64,000 nt of DNA. It comes from Bacteroidia bacterium (GTDB taxonomy: Bacteria; Bacteroidota; Ignavibacteria; SZUA-365). The notes under the pieces are model-generated. The model did not search any database, was not told the DNA's origin, and saw only the letters and a program-made list of their open reading frames with translations. The DNA is taken from assembly GCA_027493955.1 (NCBI GenBank), contig JAOSJT010000001.1, forward strand, positions 1,661,131 through 1,725,130. The letters are read 5' to 3'. Positions 37,669 through 64,000 of this stretch are shown here, piece after piece. Each line of letters opens with the position of its first letter. Positions within the stretch are counted from its first letter, which is position 1. A program made the position numbers and the translations under genes.

Positions 37669-38063
37669 GGTGGAGTGTGCTTTGGTATGGTCGATTGCTT
37701 AAAATCGTCTCACGAGGCAAAACCGCATCGCCCTGCGCTTCCTTCAGGTGCTGTAATCTACGAAATCCGGGAGCGGGTGCTAATGCTCCGGATACACCCT
37801 TCACGGGTGGGCACTGAAGCGAGGGATGTGCGCGAGGTCCGGTATGTAGGCAGCGTCCTCGCTTTTATTCATAGTATGCCCACCTCTTCGGGCTCGGGTA
37901 CAAGCCATGAACGTACATCCTGCCCCGGAAGAGCGAGAGTTCAGCCACGTCCCTCACCACCAGACGCCTGCGCTAAAGGTACCGTCTTTTTACCCTGCGG
38001 TAATCTTGCATTTCATTTTTTTTTCTTTTCGATGCGGTACATTTATGCAATCAGGAGGAAGCT
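37669..38063. other. intergenic region upstream of the giant fusion gene
   Basis: 395 bp; contains a T-rich stretch (38009-38033) that may be a promoter element or terminator tail. No gene seen before 38064. Confidence 0.4.
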
Positions 38064-38336
38064 ATGATCTCAACCTTGCCGGCGCACCCGTGCGAACCCG
38101 CGATGATCACGAGTTGGATTGATTATCAACGGATGTGTCCATCGGATCCCCGCGAATTGATCGCCCATGCTACAATTGACTCCGTGGTCGGGCAGTACGA
38201 CAACAGCGCGGACTTCATCGAACCCGGTACGTGGAGCGCCTCACCGCTCGCGATATCGAGCAAACCGGTTGTGTCAGTTCTCGAGTCGGACAACTATCTA
38301 CGGCCGAGCCGTCAACCAGAGCGAAGATCCGTATGA
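38064..38336 (+). CDS. small ORF with strong ribosome-binding site, unknown
   Basis: A 90-codon ORF (MISTLPAHPCEPAMITSWID...) preceded by AGGAGG six bases before the ATG, an unusually strong site for this window. The protein matches no family I know and its second half could be read just as well in another frame, so it may be a gene remnant. It belongs to the AT-richer cargo between the intact and truncated copies of the adenylate fusion gene. Confidence 0.3.
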   Translation: MISTLPAHPCEPAMITSWIDYQRMCPSDPRELIAHATIDSVVGQYDNSADFIEPGTWSASPLAISSKPVVSVLESDNYLRPSRQPERRSV

Positions 38337-38446
38337 CAACGAAACGTCAGCCATGGCAAGTTCTAAGGTCGTCTATCTATTACGCTAAACACCACGCCCG
38401 CACAACCCTGACTTATGCAAATATCCTGCCTAGAGGTTGAAGAATG

Positions 38447-39121
38447 ATGCGATCTTATCTGATCGAACTGGATCTAATTCAGCATCTGCGCCTGATCAGA
38501 TTGGCATTTTTGGGAGCTCTGCTCGTTTGTCCCGCATGCGGCGAAGGTCCTAACACCAGGCCGAATATTCCAACATTCTATCGTACACTCGATCATGTTC
38601 TCGCGGACTCTTCAACGCTCCGCCAACTCTACATGACTGAAATTGGAGACAGTCTGGATCCAAGAATCGGAGCTTTCAGTCAACTTGAGTATCTTGAAAT
38701 AAGAAATAGTGATTTACAATACCTGCCCGATGAATTTGCGAAGCTCAAGAGGCTATGGACACTGAAGTTGATTCATAACAATTTCAAGAGCATTCCTCCA
38801 CAGATTTTCGAACTATCCAGGTTGTCAGGATTGCTAATAGACGGAAACAAGATTGATTCCATTTCATTCGGACTTCAACGATTAACCAATCTCGATTTTC
38901 TCTCCCTGGATGATAACAGGTTACGGCATATCGCAATAGCAAACATCAATCCCCGTATGATGGTTTCAATGCATTTTTCAAGCAATCGACTTGATGACTT
39001 CCCCGCGGACAGTAGCGATTTTCCAAAGCTTCAATTTTTGGTGTTGGCTGGCAATCCTATTCCGGATTCAACTAGGAAAGCAATTCGACGCAGGCTCCCG
39101 AACGTTGAGGTATCATTTTAG
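38447..39121 (+). CDS. exported leucine-rich-repeat protein (copy 1)
   Basis: A 224-residue protein with a hydrophobic export signal (LIRLAFLGALLVCPACG, possibly a lipoprotein) and six to seven 23-residue leucine-rich repeats (LEYLEIRNSDLQYLPDEFAK, LWTLKLIHNNFKSIPPQIFE, LDFLSLDDNRLRHI, LQFLVLAGNPIPD). It ends IRRRLPNVEVSF like its neighbour at 39338, so they are paralogues. Base composition is clearly more AT-rich than the flanking genes. Likely a surface or periplasmic interaction protein; partner unknown. ATG 38447 or 38444 may start it. Confidence 0.75.
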   Translation: MRSYLIELDLIQHLRLIRLAFLGALLVCPACGEGPNTRPNIPTFYRTLDHVLADSSTLRQLYMTEIGDSLDPRIGAFSQLEYLEIRNSDLQYLPDEFAKLKRLWTLKLIHNNFKSIPPQIFELSRLSGLLIDGNKIDSISFGLQRLTNLDFLSLDDNRLRHIAIANINPRMMVSMHFSSNRLDDFPADSSDFPKLQFLVLAGNPIPDSTRKAIRRRLPNVEVSF

Positions 39122-39337
39122 CGGCTCAACCCTTTCATGATCTCGTACTGATTTGCTATGGCAAGCTGCCACCGGCTCAGGTTCTCTCGAGTAAGGCAGA
39201 GTCGCGCCCGACAGACAGCGACCGGTACCGGGAAGAGTTGAAGATGGCGAGAAATGTACAATGACGGTGTACATACGCCCTCCATGCAGCGGCGCTATAC
39301 GGTTCAGTACTTTCTCAGGTGATAGAGGTAGAGAGGC

Positions 39338-39976
39338 ATGAAGTTGACAAATAGAATTCTTCTGATCATCGTGCTCCTCTGCGGGATAGCGTGTGAAGAG
39401 GATGTCATAGACACCACGAATCCATACAGACCTTACTACAGTCTTGAAGAAGCGCTGAGGGATTCGTTGGCCGCAACCGACCTCATTCTCGAAAACATTG
39501 GGGATACCCTATCTCCTGAGGTTGGCAGGCTGAGAAACCTGCGTGGATTATTTATCAGACGCTCAAATATTCGATATTTACCCGAGGAGATAAAGTATCT
39601 ACAATCTCTCACCATTCTCGTCCTCTCGAATAATCGGTTCGCGAGTGCTCCATATCAAATCAGGCAACTTGATAGGTTAGTGTCGTTGTGGATAGATCAC
39701 AATGAGTTCACGAAATTTCCGTCCGAGGTTGCGCAGTCAAGCAGGCTCTCTGAAATCAATGTAAAATCTAATCATATTACAATTTTTCCGGAAAACCATC
39801 TGAACTTGCGGCAAGTGGAATTTCTGAATCTCGATTCCAACAGGATTTCGGTGATCAACGTGGACTCCCTCGAAGCACCTCATCTCAGGATACTATCACT
39901 GCGAGGGAACCCCATCCCTGCGAACATGAAGGAGCAACTCCGGCAGCGCTTGCCCGGAGTAGAACTACGGTTCTGA
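39338..39976 (+). CDS. leucine-rich-repeat lipoprotein (copy 2)
   Basis: A 212-residue lipoprotein: MKLTNRILLIIVLLCGIAC ends in a good lipobox (GIAC). The mature part has leucine-rich repeats (LRGLFIRRSNIRYLPEEIKY, LTILVLSNNRFASAPYQIRQ, LVSLWIDHNEFTKFPSEVAQ, LRILSLRGNPIPANM) and the same C-terminal RQRLPGVELRF motif as copy 1. AT-rich relative to neighbours, suggesting transfer. Anchored in a membrane facing the periplasm or outside. Confidence 0.82.
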   Translation: MKLTNRILLIIVLLCGIACEEDVIDTTNPYRPYYSLEEALRDSLAATDLILENIGDTLSPEVGRLRNLRGLFIRRSNIRYLPEEIKYLQSLTILVLSNNRFASAPYQIRQLDRLVSLWIDHNEFTKFPSEVAQSSRLSEINVKSNHITIFPENHLNLRQVEFLNLDSNRISVINVDSLEAPHLRILSLRGNPIPANMKEQLRQRLPGVELRF

Positions 39977-40162
39977 GCTGAGATTTTCTATCTCCCCACA
40001 ACGTACGCACTATGAGTAATCCGGCGTCCGTTGTACTTCGCTTTCCTTTCCTTCATACTCAAATACGTAAGCCCGCTACCGCATCGACATACGGGAGGTA
40101 CGCGCTCATCGCTTCACCTGACGTGTACTTGCATTCTCGACAACGAAGCATGATGTCCGGCA

Positions 40163-44374: not shown

Positions 44375-44726
44375 CAGGGACCGTCTGCTCCCCACTCCGC
44401 CCCTTCCGCAGTGCGGGCACGCCAACGCGCAGTACGGTCCATCTCGTCTGCTTCACTGATCCGACTTCTGGTATGCAGCCACGGTCGCCGGTACGGGGTC
44501 CGTGCTGGAGATGAATGTCCATCAGCATCTCCCTTGATACCCTCCTGACAGTATCCTTTTTCGGAATCCTTTTCAGAAATCCCGGTGATCTTGCGTGTAC
44601 CATCATTTTTCGACACATTTGTCGTAGAATATCTTTTACCATCGCGGCCTGTACTATCGGACAGGCGCCGCAACGGTGCGCCAATGTGATGTCGTATACG
44701 GAAGCACTCATCCAGAAGGTATGAAC
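44375..44726. other. intergenic region before the propeller array
   Basis: 352 bp with no gene recognised; presumably holds the promoter of the first YCF48-repeat gene. Confidence 0.4.
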
Positions 44727-46832
44727 ATGAGCACAAACCGGTTATTTTTCGGCCTAACCGTTACTTTTCTTTTTATCGCTTCTTCCAGTGCCAACGCCCA
44801 GCACGGCTGGACCTGGCAAAATCCACGCCCTCAGGGGAATGCCCTGTACGACGTCACGCATCTCACGGGCAGCGAATGGCTGGCGTGCGGCGAGCATGGA
44901 AGCCTCATCCGCAGCAGCGACAACGGCGCAACATGGACGCCTCAATCCTTCGGCAGGCGAACCCGCATCCTCCGCATGCACTTTCCATACCCCGACCAGG
45001 GCTACCTGACCGTCGAAGGCAGTGTGTTCCACAGCAGCGATGGCGGCCGGACGTGGCTTGAGCAGATCAACACCGAATACACACTATGGGACATAGATTT
45101 CGCCGACGCGCAGCACGGAATAGCCGTCGGCAGCTTCGGCATCATACTGCACACGAGCGATGCCGGAGTGACGTGGAATTATCTTGACGCGGAAATACAA
45201 GACGATCTGCACGCCGTCGTGTACACCGACGCGGCCAACGCTGTGATCACCGGCGCCAATGGAATCCTCCTGCGGACGAGTACGGGCGGTCTCTCCTGGC
45301 AAAAAAGCACCATCGGCACCAATCGCAGAATCATGGATATCACCGCCATCCCCGGCGGTGGCGGCTCGCTGATCGCGGTGGGCGACAACGGGACGCTGCT
45401 GCGGTCCACCGACGGCGGAGAGAGCTGGACGAACGCCATACACAGCTCCACCAGCAACCTGACACGCGTACATTTCACCGATGGAAACAACGGCATCATA
45501 ACCGGCGGTGGCGGAACACTTCTCCGTTCCGCGGACGGCGGAAAAAACTGGAGCAACGTCCTCCCGGGCGGAGGCGCCGATCTCCGCGGCATCGCCACGC
45601 ATGGTATGACAGCGCTCATCGTCGCGGCGAACGGCACCGTGCTTCGCAGCAGCAATGGCGGCATGAACTGGGGCGGCGAGGGTCCGGTCACCATAAACCA
45701 TCTGAAATGTCTGTCCTTTTCCGACGCTTCGACGGGCATCACGGCGGGGTTGGGCGTATCGCCTCTCTGGACGACAAACGGAGGGCAGGTCTGGAACAGG
45801 CAAGCCATTTCGAGCGGAAGCGATATTCTCGACATCTGCCTGATCGGCGGCACTGTCCATGCAGTCAGCAAAGGCGGCTACATCCTCCGTTCGCGGCTTG
45901 ACGGAAGCGCGAACACCCGGCACACCGTCAACACTGCGATACAATTGCGGGGTGTGTCCTTTATCGACGCGAACAACGGTATCGTCGTCGGCACGAACGG
46001 CACCATCCTCCACACCGACGACGGCGGGGATACCTGGGTCAAGCGCACAAACGAACAGTATCTGCATCTCAATGATGTGCTGCTCATCGACACAGAGACC
46101 GCTTTGGCTGTCGGGGAGCGCGGCACCTGCATTCGCACATCCGACGGCGGCATCACCTGGTCGTACATGCTTGTCGGTGTGCAGGAAGAGTTGAAGTCCA
46201 TCAGCTCCCTGACCGATGGCTATATCTCGATCGCCGGGACCCAGGGTCTCATCCTGCGCAGTGGTACACTGGGGATGAACTGGGATATTCAAAGGATTGA
46301 GACGCGACCCATGCTTAATGGCATCAGCTTCGGAAACGCCTCTGTCTGTGTAGCGGTCGGTGAGTTGGGCGCCCTGTTCGTCACCACCGACGGCGGGAGC
46401 ACCTGGACGTCGCAGCCCGAAGTGACGCGTTACGGTCTGAACGCGGTTCAGATGCACGATGCGCGCAGCGGCACCATCGTCGGTAACAGCGGCATCATAC
46501 TTCGCACCACCTCCGGTGGAGTCTCCTGGCTCGCGGACACGCGGAGAGCGCCCGCACAGGCCATGCTCGGCCGGCATTACCCGAATCCCGTGAGCGACCA
46601 CGCCGTCATTCCGTTCACCCTGCACGAGGCGGGTCATACGACAGTCAGCGTACACGACATGCTGGGGCGGCGCGTCGCGCTCCTTCTCGATACATTTCTC
46701 GATTCGGGAGCACACAGCGCCCATTTCGATGCCGCGGCGCTGCCGGCCGGTATGTACATCTGTGTGTTACGCACGGCGCACGGAGCGGTGTCTTCCATGC
46801 TTCCGGTATTTGGCCCCGGCGCTGTCCGGTGA
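44727..46832 (+). CDS. T9SS-secreted YCF48/BNR-repeat beta-propeller protein (paralogue 1)
   Basis: A 701-residue protein: signal peptide ending ASSSANAQ, the family opening HGWTWQNPRPQGN, then about a dozen ~43-residue blades of the form GxxGxxLRSTDGGESW...V.F.D.., and a C-terminal T9SS type A tail (YPNPVSDHAVIPFTL, VSVHDMLGRRVALL). YCF48 repeats relate to photosystem assembly factor HCF136 and to sialidase/BNR propellers; in T9SS bacteria such proteins are surface-exposed with unknown ligands. I choose ATG 44727, seven bases after AAGG; ATG 44721 is also possible. First of four tandem paralogues. Confidence 0.9.
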   Translation: MSTNRLFFGLTVTFLFIASSSANAQHGWTWQNPRPQGNALYDVTHLTGSEWLACGEHGSLIRSSDNGATWTPQSFGRRTRILRMHFPYPDQGYLTVEGSVFHSSDGGRTWLEQINTEYTLWDIDFADAQHGIAVGSFGIILHTSDAGVTWNYLDAEIQDDLHAVVYTDAANAVITGANGILLRTSTGGLSWQKSTIGTNRRIMDITAIPGGGGSLIAVGDNGTLLRSTDGGESWTNAIHSSTSNLTRVHFTDGNNGIITGGGGTLLRSADGGKNWSNVLPGGGADLRGIATHGMTALIVAANGTVLRSSNGGMNWGGEGPVTINHLKCLSFSDASTGITAGLGVSPLWTTNGGQVWNRQAISSGSDILDICLIGGTVHAVSKGGYILRSRLDGSANTRHTVNTAIQLRGVSFIDANNGIVVGTNGTILHTDDGGDTWVKRTNEQYLHLNDVLLIDTETALAVGERGTCIRTSDGGITWSYMLVGVQEELKSISSLTDGYISIAGTQGLILRSGTLGMNWDIQRIETRPMLNGISFGNASVCVAVGELGALFVTTDGGSTWTSQPEVTRYGLNAVQMHDARSGTIVGNSGIILRTTSGGVSWLADTRRAPAQAMLGRHYPNPVSDHAVIPFTLHEAGHTTVSVHDMLGRRVALLLDTFLDSGAHSAHFDAAALPAGMYICVLRTAHGAVSSMLPVFGPGAVR

Positions 46833-47001
46833 AGCCAATCGTCGCCTCACGACAGGTTCTTGTCCGCAACGAGGCGGCGAATAAGGAGCGGAATTTCTTC
46901 ATTGACTTCTACGGGACATTCCCGTATTTTCCTGACTGAAGTTGCCTTTTTGCATCGCGCATGATCGCCTCCCGGACAGTCAGCGTATCGACTTGTCAGG
47001 C

Positions 47002-49155
47002 ATGCGCGCCACAACCCGAGTGAGCGGAGTTTTCGTGCAATATCGCGTGGCGTGTGTTCTCCTGCTTTCTGTGTTTGTCATCGTCCTGCATGGCCGCTGC
47101 CATGCGCAAATCGGCTGGTACTGGCAGAATCCCTTCCCGCAGGGCAATCACCTTCAATCCGTTGCCTTTACCGATGCGCGTACCGGAACCGCCGTGGGCT
47201 GGTGGGGTACCATACTGCGCACCACCGACGGAGGACAGACCTGGGTCCCGCAGGCAGGCGATATCTATTCGCTCTATGGCGTGTGCTTTACCGACGCCAC
47301 TACGGGTAGCGCCGTCGGTCAGCGCGGGACGATACTGCGCACCACGGACGGCGGCAATCAGTGGACGCTGCAACAAAGCGGCACCAGGGAATTACTGACG
47401 CGGGTGACCTTCCTCGATGCCAACATCGGAATTGCCGTGGGACGCGCGGGCGTCATTCTGCGCACAAGCAATGGCGGGAGTACCTGGACGCCACAGATCA
47501 GCGGCTACATTGTCGACCTCTGGGGTGTGGCGCTTGCTGACGCTGATAATGCGCTCGCGGTGGGGCTGGAGGGGATGATACTCCGGACCAGCGACGGCGG
47601 CGAGAGCTGGTGGCGCATCATGAGCGGTGTGTCTACCTCCCTCTATGGCATTGATCAAATAGATGCGAACACCTTCGTGGTCGTGGGAAACGACGGCGTC
47701 ATACTCCGCAGCAGCGACGCGGGTCAGAACTGGATACGGCAGGGCGTCGGTGTCACGAACGAGCACCTCATCGCTGTCTCCTTCGCCGATGCGAACCACG
47801 GACTTGTCGTCGGACAGAACGGCACCATACTGCGCACCACCGATGCCGGTGCGCATTGGGTACAGCAAACGGTATGGCACCGGAAGCCGTTGTACGGCGT
47901 CACGCTCATCGATGCGCTCACCGGTGTGGCCGTCGGAGAGTCCGGCATCATCATGTACACCACCGACGGCGGAGTGTCGTGGACGGATCGCGCACCGGGC
48001 GAACGAGCGTCTTTCCACGGCATCGCCTTCTCGGATGCGGAACACGGCATAGCCGTCGGCGAGGCCGGAACGATTCTGCGCACCGCCGATGAAGGCGACA
48101 CCTGGCGGCGCACCGTCGGTGTTTCGGAACAAACACTCTACGATATAACCTTCGTCGATGGCACTCAGGGAAGCACAGCGGTGGCGGTGGGCGCCGGCGG
48201 AAGTATATTGCGCAGCACCGACGGCGGCGAGCGTTGGGCGGCCATTGAAAGCGGCACTGCGAATGATCTCACCTCGGTCGCTTTCGTTCCGAACGGAGCG
48301 GGTATCGCTGTCGGGATGCGCGGCAGCATTCTGGCAACGAGCGATCAGGGCGAGACCTGGTTCGCGCGAAACAGCGGTACGACAACGGATCTCTACGGCG
48401 TGGATTTCGCGGATGAGGACCACTGCGTTGCGGTGGGCGTCAACGGAAGCATATTGCGCAGCACGGATGGCGGGCAAGCCTGGTCGCTGCAGAATTCCGG
48501 CACCATTGCCACACTATACGGCGTGGATTTCGTCGATGCGCAGCACGGCACCGCCGTCGCCTGGGATGGCGGGATACACCGAAGCAACGACGGCGGAGTC
48601 ACCTGGCGCAGGCAATTCAGCGGACTGACATCCATTCTCGAAGATGTGGCTTTTATCGATGCGAACAACGGCTACGTGGTCGGCAGCGGAGGGACCATAC
48701 TCCGCACGACGGACGGCGGCGCCTCGTGGTCGAAGCAGGACGTCGGGACCGCCAACTGGCTCAACGCAATCAGCGTCACAAGTTCACAGAAGGCCACCGT
48801 TGCCGGCTGGGGCGGGACCATACTCCACACCCGTAACGGAGGACTGACCAGCATCGCCGCGTCGGCAATCGCCACGAACGCCGCGCTCCTCGGCAATAAT
48901 TACCCCAATCCCGTCAGCGCCTCCACCACCATCCCATTCTCTCTCACGTCACCGGAGCACGTGCGGCTCAGCATCTATGACATGCTCGGACGCGAAGTAG
49001 CGGTGTTGGTGAACGGACGGCTGGATGCGGGATTGCACAGTGCGTGTTTTAATGCTGCGGGTCTGCGGGCGGGGATGTATTTCTCTGTTCTGAGAAGCGG
49101 ATCGGTGGTAGAGACCAGGAAGCTGCTGTTGACGAATACGAGCGCGGACTACTGA
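47002..49155 (+). CDS. T9SS-secreted YCF48/BNR-repeat beta-propeller protein (paralogue 2)
   Basis: A 717-residue paralogue: signal peptide (VACVLLLSVFVIVLHGRCHAQ), IGWYWQNPFPQGN, about fourteen regular blades (for example GWWGTILRTTDGGQTW, GQNGTILRTTDAGAHW, GSGGTILRTTDGGASW) and the sorting tail YPNPVSASTTIPFSL...LSIYDMLGREVAVL. It is the most regular member; fourteen blades could make two seven-bladed propellers. ATG 47002 gives the best signal peptide; earlier in-frame TTG 46942 is unlikely. The tail shares about 43 identical bases with paralogue 4. Confidence 0.9.
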   Translation: MRATTRVSGVFVQYRVACVLLLSVFVIVLHGRCHAQIGWYWQNPFPQGNHLQSVAFTDARTGTAVGWWGTILRTTDGGQTWVPQAGDIYSLYGVCFTDATTGSAVGQRGTILRTTDGGNQWTLQQSGTRELLTRVTFLDANIGIAVGRAGVILRTSNGGSTWTPQISGYIVDLWGVALADADNALAVGLEGMILRTSDGGESWWRIMSGVSTSLYGIDQIDANTFVVVGNDGVILRSSDAGQNWIRQGVGVTNEHLIAVSFADANHGLVVGQNGTILRTTDAGAHWVQQTVWHRKPLYGVTLIDALTGVAVGESGIIMYTTDGGVSWTDRAPGERASFHGIAFSDAEHGIAVGEAGTILRTADEGDTWRRTVGVSEQTLYDITFVDGTQGSTAVAVGAGGSILRSTDGGERWAAIESGTANDLTSVAFVPNGAGIAVGMRGSILATSDQGETWFARNSGTTTDLYGVDFADEDHCVAVGVNGSILRSTDGGQAWSLQNSGTIATLYGVDFVDAQHGTAVAWDGGIHRSNDGGVTWRRQFSGLTSILEDVAFIDANNGYVVGSGGTILRTTDGGASWSKQDVGTANWLNAISVTSSQKATVAGWGGTILHTRNGGLTSIAASAIATNAALLGNNYPNPVSASTTIPFSLTSPEHVRLSIYDMLGREVAVLVNGRLDAGLHSACFNAAGLRAGMYFSVLRSGSVVETRKLLLTNTSADY

Positions 49156-49246: not shown

Positions 49247-51361
49247 ATGATTAAACGAGCCGGACTGTCTTGCCTTTATGTCGCTATCCTTCTCCTCAAC
49301 AGCAGCCTCCTCGAAGCGCAGTCCGGCTGGTTCTGGCAGAATCCGTTGCCGCAGGGGAATACTCTTTACGGAGTACATTTTGCTGATGAGCACATTGGAT
49401 ACGCTGTGGGGAACTACGGGAGTTTCTTACGTTCAACTGATGGTGGGGAGACATGGACACAGTTGAATACACCCACCAAACGGGATTTGCGCGATGTATT
49501 CTTTACCGATTCCATGAAGGGGACGATAGTCGGCGAGTTTGGAAGGATATTCAAAACAACTGATGGCGGTAACAATTGGGAAGATCGATCAATATCTACA
49601 ACAAACGTTTTGTTGAACGTTGATTTTACAGATGAAAAGCACGGATGGATACTTGTAAGTAACAGCACCTTGCTCCGCACAGAGGATGGTGGGAATAACT
49701 GGGCTGGTTCCAGCTTGAGCAATTTTGGAAGCGTACTTGGAATGCACTTCACAGATCATGAGGTTGGGACTCTCGTTGGAGCAGGTGGATTGATAATCCA
49801 TACGACCGACGGAGGAACCACCTGGCAAAATCAGGAAAGCGGGACGAAGCAGAGGCTCTATGATGTTTGCTTCCGAAATAGTGATTATGGGATCGCTGTA
49901 GGAGACGGTGGGACTATACTACGAACGACAAACGGCGGCGCAGTATGGACTAAACAAAGCACCACAACATATAATCGTCTTGAGTCTTTACAGTACTCTG
50001 ATAGCCTCAATATCACAACTGTTGGTGACCACGGGTGCGTACTTCATTCCACAAATGGAGGAATCGAGTGGATGGAGGTATCAAGTGGCTTAGTCCAATG
50101 GCTATACGATCTTTGTTATGCTGACAATCAAATCGGCATTGCAGTCGGCGCGAATGGCTGTATAGTAAAAACTACGAACGGAGGGACAGATTGGGAAAAG
50201 CGATGGTCAGGACAATACGGGTTGATGACTGAAGTGGTCTTTACCGATCACAACCATGGGTACGTGACCTGCGGTGGGGGATGGACAATTCGAACCGAAG
50301 ATGGCGGAGCAACGTGGATCGGGTATTTTCTTGGATCAATCTGGGATCAACAGCATGGGCTCTCTTTCTATGATCACAATCACGGCATTTCTGTAGGTCC
50401 TACAGGAAGAATTTTTACGACTACAAATGGAGGGGACTCTTGGAACAGACAATTAAGCTGGGTAACGGAACATCTCAACGGGATTTCTTACTCTGACTCA
50501 ATGCACGCAACAGCAGTTGGTGAGCTGGGGAGAATTATTACAACATCAGATCGAGGGATCACGTGGTTACCGCAAAACAGCGGGTGTTCAGATTACCTTT
50601 CGGAGGTGTCGTTCTGTGATAGCGATCACGGCCATATCGTAGGATTTGAAGGTACCATCCTCTACACGTCAAACCGAGGATTGGATTGGATACGTCAAAA
50701 TAGTGGCGTAACGAACGACCTCTGGGATATTACATGCAGAGACTCACTCTGTTGTACAGCTGTTGGGGCAAAAGGAATCATACTTAAGACCACCAACAGT
50801 GGGATGAGTTGGGAGGAGCAAGATAATCCAACCCGGTTCAATCTTTATGGCGTTGATTACGCAGATTCGTTATTTGGAGTCGCTGTAGGGGAATTTGGTG
50901 TCATCTTATGGACATTGGATGGAGGGAAGTGTTGGTTTATACAAGAAAGTCCCACTGATAAAATCCTTGTGGATGTAGATATGATTGACAGACAAACTGG
51001 AACCATAATCGGAGAGGGCGGCACCATCCTCCGCACCACCACCGGCGGCGTGACCTGGGTCGAAGATGAAAAGCCCTCCCCCTCCCTCCTCCACCTCGGC
51101 CAGAACTATCCCAATCCGGTCACCGCATCAACCACCATACCCTTCTCGCTCACCAATTCGGAGCATGTAAAACTGCGCGTTTACGACATGCTGGGACGTG
51201 AGGTGGCTGTGTTGATCGATGAGCGGCGCGAAGCTGGTGCGCACACTGTGCGTTTCGATGGCGCGGGATTGCGGGCGGGTGTGTATTTTTCTGTTCTGAA
51301 AATTGGATCGGTGATCGAGACACGGAAACTGATTCTGATGACCGCAAGCACGGCCTATTGA
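49247..51361 (+). CDS. T9SS-secreted YCF48/BNR-repeat beta-propeller protein (paralogue 3, mosaic composition)
   Basis: A 704-residue paralogue with signal peptide to EAQ, SGWFWQNPLPQGN and about thirteen blades, then the tail LGQNYPNPVTASTTIPFSL. Its central ~1.6 kb is distinctly AT-rich with divergent blades, while the last ~350 bp switch abruptly near 51015 to GC-rich sequence almost the same as paralogue 4 (GGCACCATCCTCCGCACCAC). This indicates an AT-rich, perhaps acquired gene whose ends were exchanged with resident paralogues. The ATG is preceded by GAGAG about nine bases upstream. Confidence 0.9.
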   Translation: MIKRAGLSCLYVAILLLNSSLLEAQSGWFWQNPLPQGNTLYGVHFADEHIGYAVGNYGSFLRSTDGGETWTQLNTPTKRDLRDVFFTDSMKGTIVGEFGRIFKTTDGGNNWEDRSISTTNVLLNVDFTDEKHGWILVSNSTLLRTEDGGNNWAGSSLSNFGSVLGMHFTDHEVGTLVGAGGLIIHTTDGGTTWQNQESGTKQRLYDVCFRNSDYGIAVGDGGTILRTTNGGAVWTKQSTTTYNRLESLQYSDSLNITTVGDHGCVLHSTNGGIEWMEVSSGLVQWLYDLCYADNQIGIAVGANGCIVKTTNGGTDWEKRWSGQYGLMTEVVFTDHNHGYVTCGGGWTIRTEDGGATWIGYFLGSIWDQQHGLSFYDHNHGISVGPTGRIFTTTNGGDSWNRQLSWVTEHLNGISYSDSMHATAVGELGRIITTSDRGITWLPQNSGCSDYLSEVSFCDSDHGHIVGFEGTILYTSNRGLDWIRQNSGVTNDLWDITCRDSLCCTAVGAKGIILKTTNSGMSWEEQDNPTRFNLYGVDYADSLFGVAVGEFGVILWTLDGGKCWFIQESPTDKILVDVDMIDRQTGTIIGEGGTILRTTTGGVTWVEDEKPSPSLLHLGQNYPNPVTASTTIPFSLTNSEHVKLRVYDMLGREVAVLIDERREAGAHTVRFDGAGLRAGVYFSVLKIGSVIETRKLILMTASTAY

Positions 51362-51448: not shown

Positions 51449-53563
51449 ATGACCCGGTATGCTGCACCTTCTTGCCTGTTTCTCTTCGCGTTTCTTCTGA
51501 TCAGCAGACCTTGTCAGGCCCAGTCCGGCTGGTTCTGGCAAAATCCGTTGCCGACGGGAAATGACCTTCTCGATGTGGCATTTTTCAGCGCGGAGACCGG
51601 CATCGCGGTGGGCGGACGAGGCACAATACTTCGTACCACCGATGCCGGCGCACAGTGGCTGTCGCAGTGGGTCGGCAACTCGCGGGATTTACGGGGTGTG
51701 GCATGCGCGACTCCGCTGATCGCCGTCGCTGTTGGCATAGATGGCATCATTCTCAGAACCACGGACGCCGGCGCGAGGTGGTCGGAGCAAAACACCAATA
51801 CCGCCTACGCGCTCAACGCCGTCGCTTTCGCCGATGCGGCCACCGGTGTGGCCGTCGGCACATCCGGAACGATACTCCGCACGACGGACGGAGGACTCAC
51901 CTGGACTCCGCGACAGGGAGGAGCAAACTCCTTCCTGCACGACGTCGTCTTCATTGACGGGGCGACGGGTTTCGCCGTGGGGCGTGATGGTATCGTTCTT
52001 CACACCACCGACGGCGGCGACACCTGGACTGCGCAGACACTGGCAAGCGGAAAGCACTTCCGCTCGGTGTCCTTTGCCGGCAGCACGCATGGGTGTATCG
52101 TCGGCGAGATGGGCGTCCTGTACCGCACGAGCGATGGTGGACAACAATGGAGCGCGGGCAGCACCGGCAGCACACAGTGGCTTCATGAAATTCTCCTGAC
52201 CAGCGCGGATGCGGGTATCACCGTGGGAATGAACGGGACCCTTATCGCAACCACGGACGGCGGAGCGAACTGGGCCCGCTCCGATGTGATTCAGTGGTCA
52301 TCGGGCACACATTCGATGGGTTTGCAATACAACGGCATCTGTCATGCCGGCAGCAACGATCTCTGCATCGTGGGCAATGCGGGCACCATTTTACGGAGCA
52401 GCAATGGCGGCGTCAACTGGATCGAGCAATCCATGGGCGTGCACAACCATTTCACCGGAATCGATTTCCACGGCAGAGACACCGGCCTTGGTCGTGGGGA
52501 CATCATTCTCCGCACCACCGACGCGGGCGACCATTGGGTACGGCAGCAAACGGATACCAGCTTTCATGCGAACGCGGTGACACTGCTGAACAGCAGCATC
52601 GCGGTCGTCGTGGGAGACGACGGCCTGATCATCCGCAGTACGGACGCGGGCGTGACGTGGACGGAGCATCGCCGCGAAGCGGATATCGATCTCCACGGCG
52701 TCAGCTTCTGCGATGATGTGCACGGCATGGCAGTCGGGCGCAGCTCTACCGTTCTTCGCAGCAGCGACGGCGGTGTGCACTGGACAAGACTCTCCATGCC
52801 CGGACCAGCGGAGGATTATTTCAGCGTATCCTGCGCAAGTCCGCTCACCGCGTTCATCCACGGAGGTAGCACGGTGTTGCGCACGACGGATGGAGGCGCA
52901 AACTGGACGGACATTTCGCCTACGAAGCTGGCCCCGCTGTACTGTATGACCTTCGTCGACAGTCTCCATGGCTTCATCGCAGGGTACACGGTTCTTTACC
53001 GAAGCACCGACGGAGGAAACAGTTGGGAATCCGTCTCGCCGGTGGCGTTCATCGCTCCCGACGCCCTGTCGTTCACGGACAACCTGAACGGGCTGGCGGT
53101 CGGCTCCGTTGGTGAAATATCGCGCACCACCGACGGCGGCCGGACCTGGAAAAAGGAGGACAGCCGCACCACCTCCGGACTTACCTGTGTGTGTATGATA
53201 GATACGGAGACGGCGAGCACAGCCGGATGGTTCGGCACCATCCTCCGCACCACCACCGGCGGCGTGACCTGGGTCGAGGATGCAAAGCCTTCCCCAACCC
53301 TCCTCCACCTCGGCCAGAATTATCCTAATCCCGTCACGACCGTGACCACCATCCCTTTCTCTCTCACATCGCCGGAGCACGTGCGGCTCAGCATCTATGA
53401 CATGCTCGGACGCGAGGTGGCTGTGTTGATCGATGAGCGGCGGGAGGCGGGGTCGCACAGTGTGCGTTTCGATGCTGCGGGACTGCGGGCGGGTGTGTAT
53501 TTCTCTGTGTTGAGAAACAACAGAGGTACGGTGACGACAAAGATGGCCGTGGTGCCTCGCTGA
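51449..53563 (+). CDS. T9SS-secreted YCF48/BNR-repeat beta-propeller protein (paralogue 4)
   Basis: A 704-residue paralogue: signal peptide ending ISRPCQAQ, SGWFWQNPLPTGN, about thirteen blades (GGRGTILRTTDAGAQW, GTSGTILRTTDGGLTW, GRDGIVLHTTDGGDTW), WVEDAKPSPTLLHLGQNYPN linker and the sorting tail ending VTTKMAVVPR. Composition is uniformly GC-rich, unlike paralogue 3. The last gene of the array; 168 bp separate it from the HicA gene. Confidence 0.9.
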   Translation: MTRYAAPSCLFLFAFLLISRPCQAQSGWFWQNPLPTGNDLLDVAFFSAETGIAVGGRGTILRTTDAGAQWLSQWVGNSRDLRGVACATPLIAVAVGIDGIILRTTDAGARWSEQNTNTAYALNAVAFADAATGVAVGTSGTILRTTDGGLTWTPRQGGANSFLHDVVFIDGATGFAVGRDGIVLHTTDGGDTWTAQTLASGKHFRSVSFAGSTHGCIVGEMGVLYRTSDGGQQWSAGSTGSTQWLHEILLTSADAGITVGMNGTLIATTDGGANWARSDVIQWSSGTHSMGLQYNGICHAGSNDLCIVGNAGTILRSSNGGVNWIEQSMGVHNHFTGIDFHGRDTGLGRGDIILRTTDAGDHWVRQQTDTSFHANAVTLLNSSIAVVVGDDGLIIRSTDAGVTWTEHRREADIDLHGVSFCDDVHGMAVGRSSTVLRSSDGGVHWTRLSMPGPAEDYFSVSCASPLTAFIHGGSTVLRTTDGGANWTDISPTKLAPLYCMTFVDSLHGFIAGYTVLYRSTDGGNSWESVSPVAFIAPDALSFTDNLNGLAVGSVGEISRTTDGGRTWKKEDSRTTSGLTCVCMIDTETASTAGWFGTILRTTTGGVTWVEDAKPSPTLLHLGQNYPNPVTTVTTIPFSLTSPEHVRLSIYDMLGREVAVLIDERREAGSHSVRFDAAGLRAGVYFSVLRNNRGTVTTKMAVVPR

Positions 53564-58974: not shown

Positions 58975-59520
58975 CATCGCAGAGACGCGGGGGGAATAAA
59001 ACGCAAAGGCGCACAGCTGCAGAGGCGCAGAGGAATTTATGTCGGGGTCTGTTGTCGCCGGATTTATTGGAAATTTCCTTTGGCTTGAGCGTGAAGGCCT
59101 TGAGGCGCAGGGGGAAGCACACGCAAAGGCGTAAAGCTGCAAAGGCGCAGAGGGAATATGAAAGGTGACCTCATGGTATCTATCCTTCATTTCTGCGATT
59201 TCTGTTTATTCTGCGTGTTCTGTGGTCCGCAGAGGCGCCTCTTCGACTACGCTCAGGAGCTGCAGAGGCGCAGAGGAATTTATGTCGGGGTCTGTTGTCG
59301 CCGGATTTATTGGAAATTTCCTTTGGCTTGAGCGTGAAGGCGTTGAGGCGCAGGGGGAAGCACACGCAAAGGCGCAAAGCTGCGGAGGCGCAGAGGGAAT
59401 ATGAAAGGTGACCTCATGGTCCCTCTCCTTCATTTCTGCGATTTCTGTTTATTCTGCGTGTTCTGTGGTCCGCAGAGACGCACCTTCGACTACGCTCAGG
59501 AACTGCGGAGGCGCAGAGGA
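58975..59520. repeat. 243-bp tandem repeat built of GCGCAGAGG elements
   Basis: A 243-bp unit occurs at 59015-59257 and 59258-59500, with a partial third start at 59501-59520 and a partial leader from 58975. Each unit runs from CTGCAGAGGCGCAGAGGAAT through GCCGGATTTATTGGAAATTT and GTGACCTCATGGT to CTTCGACTACGCTCAGGA. ORFs in it are by-products. Few differences separate the copies, so the duplication is recent. Confidence 0.92.
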
Positions 59521-60706: not shown

Positions 60707-60896
60707 ACATTTTCCTTGAAATCTCGGTGCATGATGCTGATTTTTCAAGGAAAATATCTATTCGAACATTCAGTCGCAAATCAACAACGGACTACATGCA
60801 GACATTTTCCTTGAAATTCCTGCGTACTACACCGATTTTTCAAGGTAGGTGTCCAATCGAACCAGCAGGCGCAAGTCAGCTACGGACTTCGTCCAC
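60707..60896. repeat. two ~95-bp units, each with a TTTTCCTTGAAA hairpin, before the AAA-DUF4143 gene
   Basis: Unit 1 (60707-60801) has perfect 13-bp inverted arms ATTTTCCTTGAAA (60709-60721) and TTTCAAGGAAAAT (60743-60755). Unit 2 (60802-60896) repeats the first arm exactly and part of the second (TTTCAAGG, 60838-60845). Distal parts also align (ATTCGAAC..CAG.CGCAA.TCA / AATCGAAC). It starts 3 bp upstream of the ATPase ATG, so it should affect its transcription or translation. Confidence 0.8.
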
Positions 60897-62331: not shown

Positions 62332-63106
62332 CACAGTGCGACGCTGCCGGTCCACACCGGTGCGGGAAGGCCGCGCTTGCAGCGGGATACTGTGGAGCGA
62401 TACTTCCGGAGACGGGCAGCGTATTAACCTACCTCTACTTCTCCACGGTTCCTGTGCGAGGTTTCGGCTTCGCGGCCCCTGAGCGTAGTCGAAGGGCAAC
62501 CACCGTCGAAGGGGCGCCTTTGCGTTGACTCCCCCTCCCCTGTGTCTTTCCGATGAAAATATATTTTGTTCACCTCTTGACTATTAGCGATCATTCTCCG
62601 ATTTTTGTGGAATACTAGGAAGCGCGGCGCAAGCCGGACCACAAAACAGTGGGAGGAAACCGAGAGAATCGCTACGATCCGTATTCCATCATTCTCATGA
62701 CATCCCCCGCACGCCTCGCGATCATGCAAGCGTCTATGATCGCCGTGCGATGCGCCACCGCGACCTGAGCAGTGTTACCCTATGATCTCAACTCCACATC
62801 CGCACCGGCCATCACATGGGACCGAATTGGCGGAGCTTGGGCGGGGGGGCGGAAGTCGCACTCCTTGATACTTGGAAACACGGGGGGCCTCGTCGATTTC
62901 AAGTGTTAGCGAGAGTAAACCGTCTTGCTCCATATAACACGAAAGATCGAGCGCTGCTGAGATTGCTTGAGTCTGGAGAATAATCACGAGATGAAGCATT
63001 GTGAAAGCCATTTTCAGTGCAGGATAACCGGCGGTCAGATAGTAATCGATACTCCGGATTATCGGGACAACCATTCAATGACGGTCGACAAAAAAGGAGC
63101 ATAGGC
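62332..63106. other. gene-poor region
   Basis: 775 bp with the 61-bp repeat at 62456-62516 and otherwise no convincing gene; the open frames have no family features. Confidence 0.45.
62456..62516. repeat. 61-bp CTGAGCGTAGTCGAAGG dispersed repeat, copy 2
   Basis: Same orientation and 58/61 identical to 55748-55808, ending CCACCGTCGAAGGGGCG and followed by GCCTTTGCGTTGACTCCCC, a CTCTGCG-family tail. Confidence 0.85.
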
Positions 63107-63391
63107 ATGCGTATTTGTGACGCTATCAAGAACATGCAGACGCTGAGTTTCACTTACAATGGGTATAGACGTGTCGTTGAGCCGCATACGTATGGCACAG
63201 ACACAAAAGGCCACGAAGCATTGCGCGCGTATCAGACAAGCGGTAGCAGCGAGTCTGGAGAACTTGGCTGGAAGCTCTTCCATGTCGGAGATATCCGCGG
63301 CTTATCCGTGCTGGAAGCCACCTTCCCGAAGCCTCGTCCCGGATACAAACGCGGAGATAAAGGCTTCTCCTCTATCCGCTGCCAGCTCTAA
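63107..63391 (+). CDS. small WYL-domain-like protein
   Basis: A 94-residue protein: MRICDAIKNMQTLSFTYNGY, RRVVEPHTYGTDTKGHEALR, then ELGWKLFHVGDIRGLSVLEA. This is the core of a WYL domain (ligand-sensing fold of defence-linked and DNA-damage regulators) without a DNA-binding part. AGGAGC lies six bases before the ATG. Short WYL-only proteins of this kind are common but uncharacterised. It lies 270 bp upstream of a caspase-like gene on the same strand. Confidence 0.75.
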   Translation: MRICDAIKNMQTLSFTYNGYRRVVEPHTYGTDTKGHEALRAYQTSGSSESGELGWKLFHVGDIRGLSVLEATFPKPRPGYKRGDKGFSSIRCQL

Positions 63392-63472
63392 CCGAACAGC
63401 ATCCGCATAGTTTCGCTGGCGTTCAAGCTGATAGTTCAAAGCATTGGTAGACACTCTAGATTATTAAATTTT

Positions 63473-63661
63473 GTGAGCGGTTTGCAAATATTGAAGAATC
63501 AGCTTGACCAAATGAGCACGAAAAGTGAAACCATGGATATCGAAGCCGACGAAAAAGAAGCAATGGATTGCGGTAACTCAGGGAGCACGGGGTGTGGGGT
63601 GCTACTCGGACAGTATCCACCTGGGCTTTGTATGATAAGGAAACTAATAATTCATGTGTAA
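63473..63661 (+). CDS. small ORF, uncertain
   Basis: A 62-codon frame from GTG 63473 (SGLQILKNQLDQMSTKSETM...) ending 3 bp before the caspase-like gene. The acidic helical first half looks coding-like, but there is no family match and no strong ribosome site. May be a leader gene or noise. Confidence 0.25.
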   Translation: MSGLQILKNQLDQMSTKSETMDIEADEKEAMDCGNSGSTGCGVLLGQYPPGLCMIRKLIIHV

Positions 63662-63664
63662 TCT

Positions 63665-64000
63665 ATGAAAAACGGAACCCCACACACAAAGCCAGAAGTT
63701 TTCATTCTGGAGTCATTAACACTCGATGACGAAGGCAAAGACCAGAAAGATGGGTTGATGCTATCACAGGCACTGCACCTTTATAACAAAAAGCCGAAGT
63801 ATTTTTACTTTCGGACTGAGCGCGAGCTGATCAATCTGATCGCCTTATTCAAGGAATCCAACTATCGATACCTCCATCTTTCCTGCCACGGCTCTGCAGC
63901 ATCGCTCAGCACTACTTTCGACGAACTTGACTATGGTAGCGTCGGACGAATACTAGGCGGCACACTCAACAACAAGAGATTATTCGTATCCGCCTGCGAG
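63665..64000 (+). CDS. caspase/CHAT-like cysteine protease family protein (5' part only)
   Basis: 112 codons are visible before the window ends, all in frame. The sequence EVFILESLTLDDEG, QALHLYNKKPKYFYFRTERE, YRYLHLSCHGSA (His75) and NNKRLFVSACE (Cys111) has the His...Cys spacing and flanking strands of the caspase/CHAT superfamily: hydrophobic strand-H-G, then hydrophobic strand-S-A-C. The catalytic dyad would be His75-Cys111. Such proteins act as effectors in some defence and cell-death systems, but short solitary forms are uncharacterised. The C-terminus and any partner domain lie outside the window. Confidence 0.7.
   Translation, partial: MKNGTPHTKPEVFILESLTLDDEGKDQKDGLMLSQALHLYNKKPKYFYFRTERELINLIALFKESNYRYLHLSCHGSAASLSTTFDELDYGSVGRILGGTLNNKRLFVSACE

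Follow-up and report, generated by a model that had tools for sequence, protein, structure and literature searches.

In a window of 64,000 nucleotides (nt) from the genome of a Bacteroidia bacterium (contig JAOSJT010000001.1, positions 1,661,131 to 1,725,130), four head-to-tail genes, here called P1 to P4, encode products of 704–737 residues with BNR/YCF48-type repeats and a C-terminal sorting tail of the type IX secretion system (T9SS). We propose that adjacent cargo genes trade T9SS sorting tails through local homologous recombination, and that the propeller of P3 was likely imported or replaced; we put the probability of this reading at about 0.8. Short homologous exchanges between neighbouring tails, by gene conversion or double crossovers, would have copied stretches of tail among P2, P3 and P4, with a patchwork as the result; the propellers meanwhile would have diverged or been replaced. 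The AT-rich propeller of P3 would have been imported or replaced and set between host-like 5′ and 3′ ends. This reading is directly supported by an excess of silent identity in the tails, by their block pattern, by a break in the composition of P3, and by a dependence of tail sharing on closeness and strand in two genomes. That recombination and no other process made the tracts, and the direction of each exchange, we infer from these results.

From position 51014 on, P3 and P4 are 83% identical over 284 nt. Their longest exact match is 45 nt (51019–51063 in P3) and that of P2 and P4 is 44 nt (coordinates in Table 1); with the tails removed, exact matches among P1–P4 (six pairs) reach 20 nt at most. 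A preceding sequence-only reading had described a P3 segment nearly the same as in P4 and about 43 identical tail bases in P2 and P4. Both descriptions hold, since the 20-nt string it quoted occurs exactly twice in the window (51020 and 53234, plus strand) and the second match is the one of 44 nt.

The sequence-only reading had proposed gene conversion, to be refuted if tail identity at synonymous sites were no higher than a conserved protein would lead one to expect. To address this question at silent sites, we counted identical codons at positions with the same residue and compared them with the expectation from codon usage. In the tails, the P3/P4 pair had 54 of 81 identical codons (31.7 expected), P2/P4 45 of 64 (24.2) and P2/P3 34 of 68 (25.9); with gene-specific codon usage, the corresponding z values were 7.3, 5.8 and 3.9. 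The tails of P3/P4 and P2/P4 are far above expectation, and exchange was not refuted by this test. The tail of P1 was at chance (18/45 against P3, 20/50 against P4 and 18/48 against P2). In the cores, P2/P4 lay slightly above chance (89/186, 70.6 expected), and the pairs with P3 lay below it (P3/P4 41/147, 55.4 expected; P2/P3 49/168, 65.3 expected), as the composition of P3 predicts.

The closest partner changes along the tail, and the tail of P2, P3 and P4 is a mosaic. The identity between P3 and P4 is 0.41 in the core and 0.88, 0.73, 0.88 and 0.38 in four successive tail blocks, A to D; the limits of these blocks were set after viewing the pattern and are descriptive, not a test. At 50 third positions exactly two of the three genes agree. 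Given in the order P3=P4, P2=P4 and P2=P3, these number 10, 0 and 1 in block A, 2, 13 and 2 in block B, 9, 4 and 1 in block C, and 0, 3 and 5 in block D. They fall into 21 runs where 32.5 are expected (p 0.0003), and long-run tests on all tail sites were significant (0 to 2 of 10,000 shuffles). The 3′ end of P3 had been said to match P4; it does so in blocks A and C, stands apart in block B, and in its last 20 codons resembles P2 and not P4. Likewise, gene conversion had been proposed to keep the sorting domain uniform. Tail exchange is borne out by these data but uniformity is not: the tail is a patchwork, P1 stands at chance, and P2/P3 is weak. Exchange between P2 and P3 is weakly suggested, mainly by the last tail block.

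The composition of P3 breaks where the P4-like block starts. In a one-break model of GC content at third codon positions (GC3), the break falls at 51014, which is codon 590 and lies within the last propeller strands, with a GC3 of 0.46 before and 0.68 after it; none of 500 codon shuffles reached its strength, which confirms the abrupt change from AT-rich DNA noticed earlier near 51015. P2 and P4 are without such a break (their strongest ones were matched by 360 and 246 of 500 shuffles), and the break of P1 lies near its gene start (2/500). By segment, GC3 of P3 is 0.65 at the 5′ end, 0.44 in the core, and 0.88, 0.67, 0.58 and 0.60 in the tail blocks, so the description of the 3′ end as strikingly GC-rich is right for the first tail block only. 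The cores of P1, P2 and P4 have a GC3 of 0.73–0.76, against 0.44 in P3. Among 154 sampled T9SS genes of the genome, the body of P3 ranks second from the bottom both in GC3 and in agreement of codon usage. Tail conversion by itself does not explain an AT-rich propeller, for which a separate import or replacement is needed.

Where might such a propeller have come from? The nearest bodies among those compared, from L119 (a Bacteroidetes metagenome-assembled genome, MAG) and L092, are 42% identical to P3 in protein sequence, closer than P2 (33%) and P4 (30%); such MAGs also match the body of P2 better (48%) than its array neighbours do. No AT-rich donor of the P3 core was found among 40 related loci, AT-rich contigs included (best protein identity 45%), a sample biased by its selection through short exact P3 peptides. 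In a tree of the cores, 16 of the 24 inner branches are open and many branches are long, leaving P3 unplaced and undatable. A rebuilt tail tree places tails of G003, G006, G005 and G002 near those of P1–P4, much as before but without a supported clade, and neither tree was relied on. The propeller of P3 is probably an import or a replacement. Given a search seeded with P3 peptides and the unplaced position of P3 in the core tree, we infer a foreign origin that is plausible but unproven. In this comparison, BNR/YCF48 proteins that are almost alike occur in L094 (a MAG labelled Deltaproteobacteria) and L095 (a Calditrichaceae MAG), reflecting contamination, mislabelling or recent transfer.

The low GC content of P3 could instead have arisen in place, by drift of codon choice and with no import. 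The missing donor, the 42% identity of the closest bodies and the unplaced position of P3 would fit such drift, but the sharp break at the start of the P4-like block and the GC3 of the three other cores do not, and we regard it as rather unlikely.

To see how tails behave elsewhere in the same genome, we compared 159 tails from the window, from stretches around tails and from some tandem clusters (94 stretches, 555,356 bases); 150 of 352 tail candidates were scored, and the 159 are thus a subset of the tails of the genome. Silent identity of same-strand tails was 0.66 and 0.68 within 5 kb, 0.63 at 5–20 kb and 0.56 at 20–60 kb, and dropped to 0.42 and 0.41 beyond 60 kb (expected 0.37–0.38). Tails on opposite strands had 0.38–0.46 at all distances, and tails more than 300 kb apart were near chance (0.41 and 0.40 versus 0.37). 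These data bear on purifying selection alone, under which constrained tails would look alike with no exchange. The tail protein type of P1–P4 does recur in other genomes of the family, and there is a mild silent excess across genera. Yet distant tails and the tail of P1 are near or at silent chance, and sharing depends on proximity and strand. The distance dependence largely refutes this explanation, which we consider highly improbable.

The distance trend mixes in recent whole-gene duplicates, and each tail must therefore be compared with its own upstream DNA. We split the 345 pairs with a tail identity of at least 0.5 by whether the upstream 350 residues were unrelated or at chance level in silent codons. 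Near pairs were those on the same strand within 10 kb, and the threshold for tail sharing was z > 3.5; pairs with a tail identity below 0.5, fewer than 20 shared codons or fewer than 60 upstream residues were left out of the near and far counts. With unrelated or chance-level upstream DNA, 6 of 21 near pairs exceeded the threshold as against 2 of 185 others (Fisher p 1.3 × 10−5). When gene positions were shuffled, the mean number of such near pairs was 0.08 and the maximum 3 in 20,000 shuffles, compared with the 6 observed. The six are 4043267/4045651 (70 of 77 silent codons identical), 3006981/3011382 (54/66), 145968/148509 (58/76), 2427002/2428028 (44/64), P3/P4 (43/70 with the tail boundary used here) and 2427002/2430796 (38/62). 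They represent five places, and genes 2427002 and 983875 are incomplete, as they run past the ends of the sampled stretches. P2/P3 reached a z of 3.4 in this survey, below the threshold. Among pairs with homologous upstream DNA, silent identity was higher in the tail than upstream in 45/61 near and 72/130 far pairs, and in 15/22 near and 7/34 far pairs when the 15-gene cluster A was left out. Closeness on the same strand predicts tail sharing; selection for uniform tails finds no support here. An array of fifteen tandem T9SS genes (G000:C1:2208632-2261153, loci L142–L145; 13 of them encode 1,065–1,168 residues) has a higher silent identity in tail than in body in 93 of 105 pairs.

Three consecutive genes on the minus strand, 3011382, 3006981 and 3002583, illustrate the proposed mechanism. 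Gene 3006981 is nearly identical to 3002583 through 200 codons upstream of the tail and into the tail; over the whole body, protein identity is 0.77 and 810 of 968 silent codons agree. At about tail codon 55 it switches to near-identity with 3011382, whose body is unrelated, and this covers the final ~45 codons of the tail. Beyond them, in the stop codon and the next 160 nt, 3006981 agrees with 3011382 at 157 of 163 positions and with 3002583 at just 87 of 145. The trio carries the signature expected if two unrelated neighbours had undergone unequal crossing-over within their tails, and it shows how arrays of cargo genes can grow.

P3 and P4 are also alike at their 5′ ends, in a block (82%, 72 nt) that the sequence-only reading had not mentioned and that lies at the same offset in both genes. 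This raises the possibility that P3 is a tandem duplicate of the P4 lineage in which crossovers at the conserved 5′ and 3′ ends later put foreign AT-rich DNA in place of the propeller, so that the tails are the undisturbed remains of the duplicate. The sharing of blocks at both ends fits this proposal, as do the deviant GC3 and codon usage of the P3 body. A 5′ block was also common to 4 of 7 near pairs with a tail z > 3 and chance-level or unrelated upstream DNA, as against 1 of 14 other such near pairs, a count blind to 5′ ends outside the sampled stretches, such as that of 2427002. Body replacement leaves the change of partner along the tail unexplained, however (P2 agrees with P4 in block B and with P3 in the final block). 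In addition, the 5′ likeness is partly that of a conserved protein, as the peptide QSGWFWQN was among those that found relatives in other genomes. In the first 120 nt, 13 of 20 shared-residue codons are identical (7.5 expected), with a run test that was not significant (p 0.15). We regard body replacement as a real possibility, though one we lean against; it may also have added to tail exchange.

Several observations weigh against local tail exchange as we propose it. Restricted to codons with the same residue in all three genes, the block test loses strength (p 0.035 on 26 sites); confined to silent codons, long-run tests were not significant within the tail (p 0.06, 0.18 and 0.20), and over the whole gene the silent test was significant for P3/P4 (p 0.007) and not for the other two pairs. 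Compared with the tails of four other genomes of the family, P2, P3 and P4 had silent excesses with z of 0.2–4.7 (maximum P4/G006). This mild excess across genera indicates that part of the tail excess is background and that the chance expectation is somewhat too low. The silent identities of P3/P4 (0.67) and P2/P4 (0.70) exceed all twelve cross-genome comparisons (0.35–0.56; 18/52 to 27/48), and that of P2/P3 (0.50) does not. In two of the eight pairs with shared tails, the genes do not lie close together: 983875/3484693 are on opposite strands at a distance of 2.5 Mb and have chance-level upstream DNA (tail silent codons 47/68, 24.5 expected), and 2212105/2258883 are 43 kb apart in one cluster. 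Moreover, 15 of the 21 near pairs with unrelated or chance-level upstream DNA stay below the tail threshold. Downstream, P3 and P4 have no related DNA (43/82 nt, with a mean of 0.55 for random 90-mers), and the P3 tracts are thus better described as conversion or old double exchanges. Unequal crossing-over of P3 and P4 is not supported by the downstream DNA. The downstream likeness of P2 and P3 (51/77, 0.66) was not counted as evidence, as 200 random pairs had a 95th percentile of 0.64 and a maximum of 0.71.

Nor are GC3 breaks concentrated at tail starts across the genome. Among 147 genes, 40 had a significant break (matched in no more than 1 of 300 shuffles), and 2 of these lay at the tail start where 4.8 were expected. 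A break at the tail start was therefore rejected as a general feature; of the 40 genes, just P3 and 1859387 have one. Gene 1859387 (L008) has an AT-rich T9SS body (GC3 0.465) and a host-like tail (0.66), with the break 13 codons into the tail; among the 159 tails it had no partner with an identity of at least 0.5 and excess silent identity (best z 3.9, 38 of 94 residues identical).

We also analyzed tail sharing in other genomes. The 40 relatives searched include none of the same genus as the source. In G029, which belongs to another family of the same class, we compared 71 tails from 20 stretches chosen for clustered tails, counting as near those pairs with gene starts within 12 kb in one stretch (in the source genome, gaps under 10 kb). 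By the same z criterion, tails were shared in 8/60 near and 3/1035 far pairs; the Fisher p of 7 × 10−9 is too small, as the eight near pairs lie in three stretches and are non-independent. In seven of the eight, DNA homology starts 242–302 nt before the stop codon, between unrelated or chance-level bodies, and ends no more than 14 nt after it (119 nt in one pair). In the eighth (L235), homology spans 876 nt. Six tail-sharing pairs in G029 have unrelated bodies. In loci L233 and L237 of this genome, genes with unrelated bodies share DNA modules that are limited to the tail and start 242–302 nt before the stop. Four further genomes (G001, G003, G008 and G012; three of the family and one of the order) yielded 19 tails. 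Of the near pairs whose upstream DNA is unrelated or at chance level, 2 of 5 qualified here, both in G003; of the 28 far pairs, some of them between genomes, none did. The observation of tail sharing is thus more general than the P1–P4 array.

Could ordinary tandem duplication with fast-evolving propellers account for these results, the tails being young and the bodies merely looking old? The tandem order and common gene layout of P1–P4 would agree with it. Against it, chance-level agreement of the bodies extends to silent sites, for which speed of change at the protein level gives no explanation, and some tail-sharing neighbours have unrelated bodies (3006981/3011382 and the six pairs in G029). 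We consider duplication of this kind improbable.

Among the surface and secreted proteins of Bacteroidota and their relatives, T9SS cargo forms a major class, recognised by its sorting tails. Should tails move between neighbours, the tail of a cargo gene would be no record of its passenger's past, and unrelated or foreign proteins would have a way of becoming secreted. More tentatively, and with somewhat less than even confidence, we suggest that the sorting tail is a local recombination module in T9SS bacteria with hundreds of cargo genes. Neighbours with unrelated passengers would keep exchanging tails, and crossovers in the tails, with 5′ ends as a second anchor, would create new combinations of tail and passenger and fit foreign passengers with a host tail. 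P3 would then be an imported propeller between host-type ends.

The silent excess in one segment, the patchwork, and the dependence on proximity and strand resemble gene conversion and unequal crossing-over in tandem families (concerted evolution), as does the one clear unequal-crossover product in the source genome. Unlike usual concerted evolution, the sharing is centred on a secretion tail and also occurs between neighbours with unrelated passengers, so that the tail behaves as a module. In Porphyromonas gingivalis, the gingipain and HagA surface proteins undergo domain rearrangement, and the excerpted text mentions gene conversion as one way in which variation may arise (PMC5266723). There too, T9SS cargo is diversified by recombination among genes with shared modules, but what is described in those excerpts is variation of catalytic and adhesin modules between strains and not a sorting tail passed among neighbours (PMC5266723). 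The DUF1703 family of Cardinium cCpun consists of Bacteroidota paralogues of low identity with evidence of intragenic recombination; it differs in being a nuclease family, and the excerpts of that paper single out no tail module, report "no apparent homogenization" and mention the T9SS as machinery (PMC6387759). In the parts of two other papers that were matched, gene conversion appears in the reference lists only (PMC5808330, PMC5714932), and in a third there is a remark on G+C bias (PMC6767994). Among the matches listed from the open-access literature (titles and abstract openings), none reported exchange of sorting tails between neighbouring T9SS cargo genes, and no open-access paper matched on YCF48 together with T9SS. 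The recombination process itself is known; its concentration on the secretion tail of neighbours, including those with unrelated passengers, looks new.

All four proteins matched PF14870 (YCF48/BNR repeats) with 165.9–206.2 bits (gathering score 27), and all four carry a C-terminal T9SS type A sorting domain (Por_Secre_tail) above the curated cut-offs of 23 bits for TIGR04183 and 27 bits for PF18962. By these profiles, P1–P4 are ordinary predicted members of the T9SS type A cargo. They were rejected as the Ycf48 photosystem II assembly factor proper, as they scored 159.8–211.2 bits against NF010237, whose equivalog score is 326. Their translations have hydrophobic N-termini ending near AQ. The window sits in a 5.24-Mb single-contig genome in which SprA (TIGR04189) exceeded the cut-off (1050.5 bits, with its neighbours) and peptidase C25, the family of PorU, gave three matches; these findings make it likely that a T9SS is present. 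Relatives identified through protein similarity are for the most part MAGs with the label Ignavibacteria/Ignavibacteriae or Bacteroidota/Bacteroidetes.

An AlphaFold2 model of P3 (13-row alignment) had a mean predicted local distance difference test score of 83.3 and a predicted template-modelling (TM) score of 0.60. It consists of two propellers with regular four-strand repeats to residue 597, a low-confidence linker (602–615) and a six-strand tail (628–697), with a helix at residues 2–20, where confidence is low. In a Foldseek search it aligned with the tandem-propeller GH74 xyloglucanase 2cn3 over its whole length (E 6.3 × 10−19, TM 0.58) and with YCF48 5ojr over one propeller (E 7.1 × 10−15, TM 0.77 by target). 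The model thus predicts a beta-propeller fold for P3. The best matches among solved structures were GH74 xyloglucanases, which are two-propeller enzymes, at a sequence identity of 13–15%.

Table 1. Genes, tail blocks and exact matches in the P1–P4 array (positions in the window)
Feature	Position	Strand	Remarks
P1 (paralogue 1)	44676..46832	+	BNR/YCF48-type repeats and C-terminal sorting tail; tail outside the exchange; open reading frame listed from GTG, in-frame ATG at 44724
P2 (paralogue 2)	46942..49155	+	BNR/YCF48-type repeats and sorting tail
44 nt of P2 = P4	48952..48995	+	exact match
P3 (paralogue 3)	49247..51361	+	AT-rich BNR/YCF48-type repeats and host-like sorting tail
5′ block of P3 shared with P4	49290..49361	+	~82% over 72 alignment columns; end of putative signal peptide and QSGWFWQNPLP
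AT-rich core of P3	49367..51013	+	GC3 0.44; silent codons below chance versus all three paralogues
Tail block A of P3	51014..51091	+	nearly P4, 69/78 nt; last propeller strands (codon 590) into WVED-KPSP linker
Tail block B	51092..51199	+	P3 apart; P2=P4 94/108 nt; contains most of the 44-nt exact match
Tail block C	51200..51297	+	P3=P4 again, 87/99 nt
Tail block D	51298..51361	+	end of P3 (last 20 codons) like P2 (41/60 nt), unlike P4 (18/48)
P4 (paralogue 4)	51449..53563	+	BNR/YCF48-type repeats and sorting tail; tail partner of P3 and P2
45 nt of P4 = P3	53233..53277	+	exact match
44 nt of P4 = P2	53372..53415	+	exact match

Elsewhere in the window, GC content is 0.47–0.48 at 38001–40000 and 63001–64000, and 0.52–0.66 in the other 1-kb steps, P3 apart. 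Two adjacent 243-nt copies at 59015–59500 are 96% identical, and two adjacent 95-nt copies at 60707–60896 are 72% identical.

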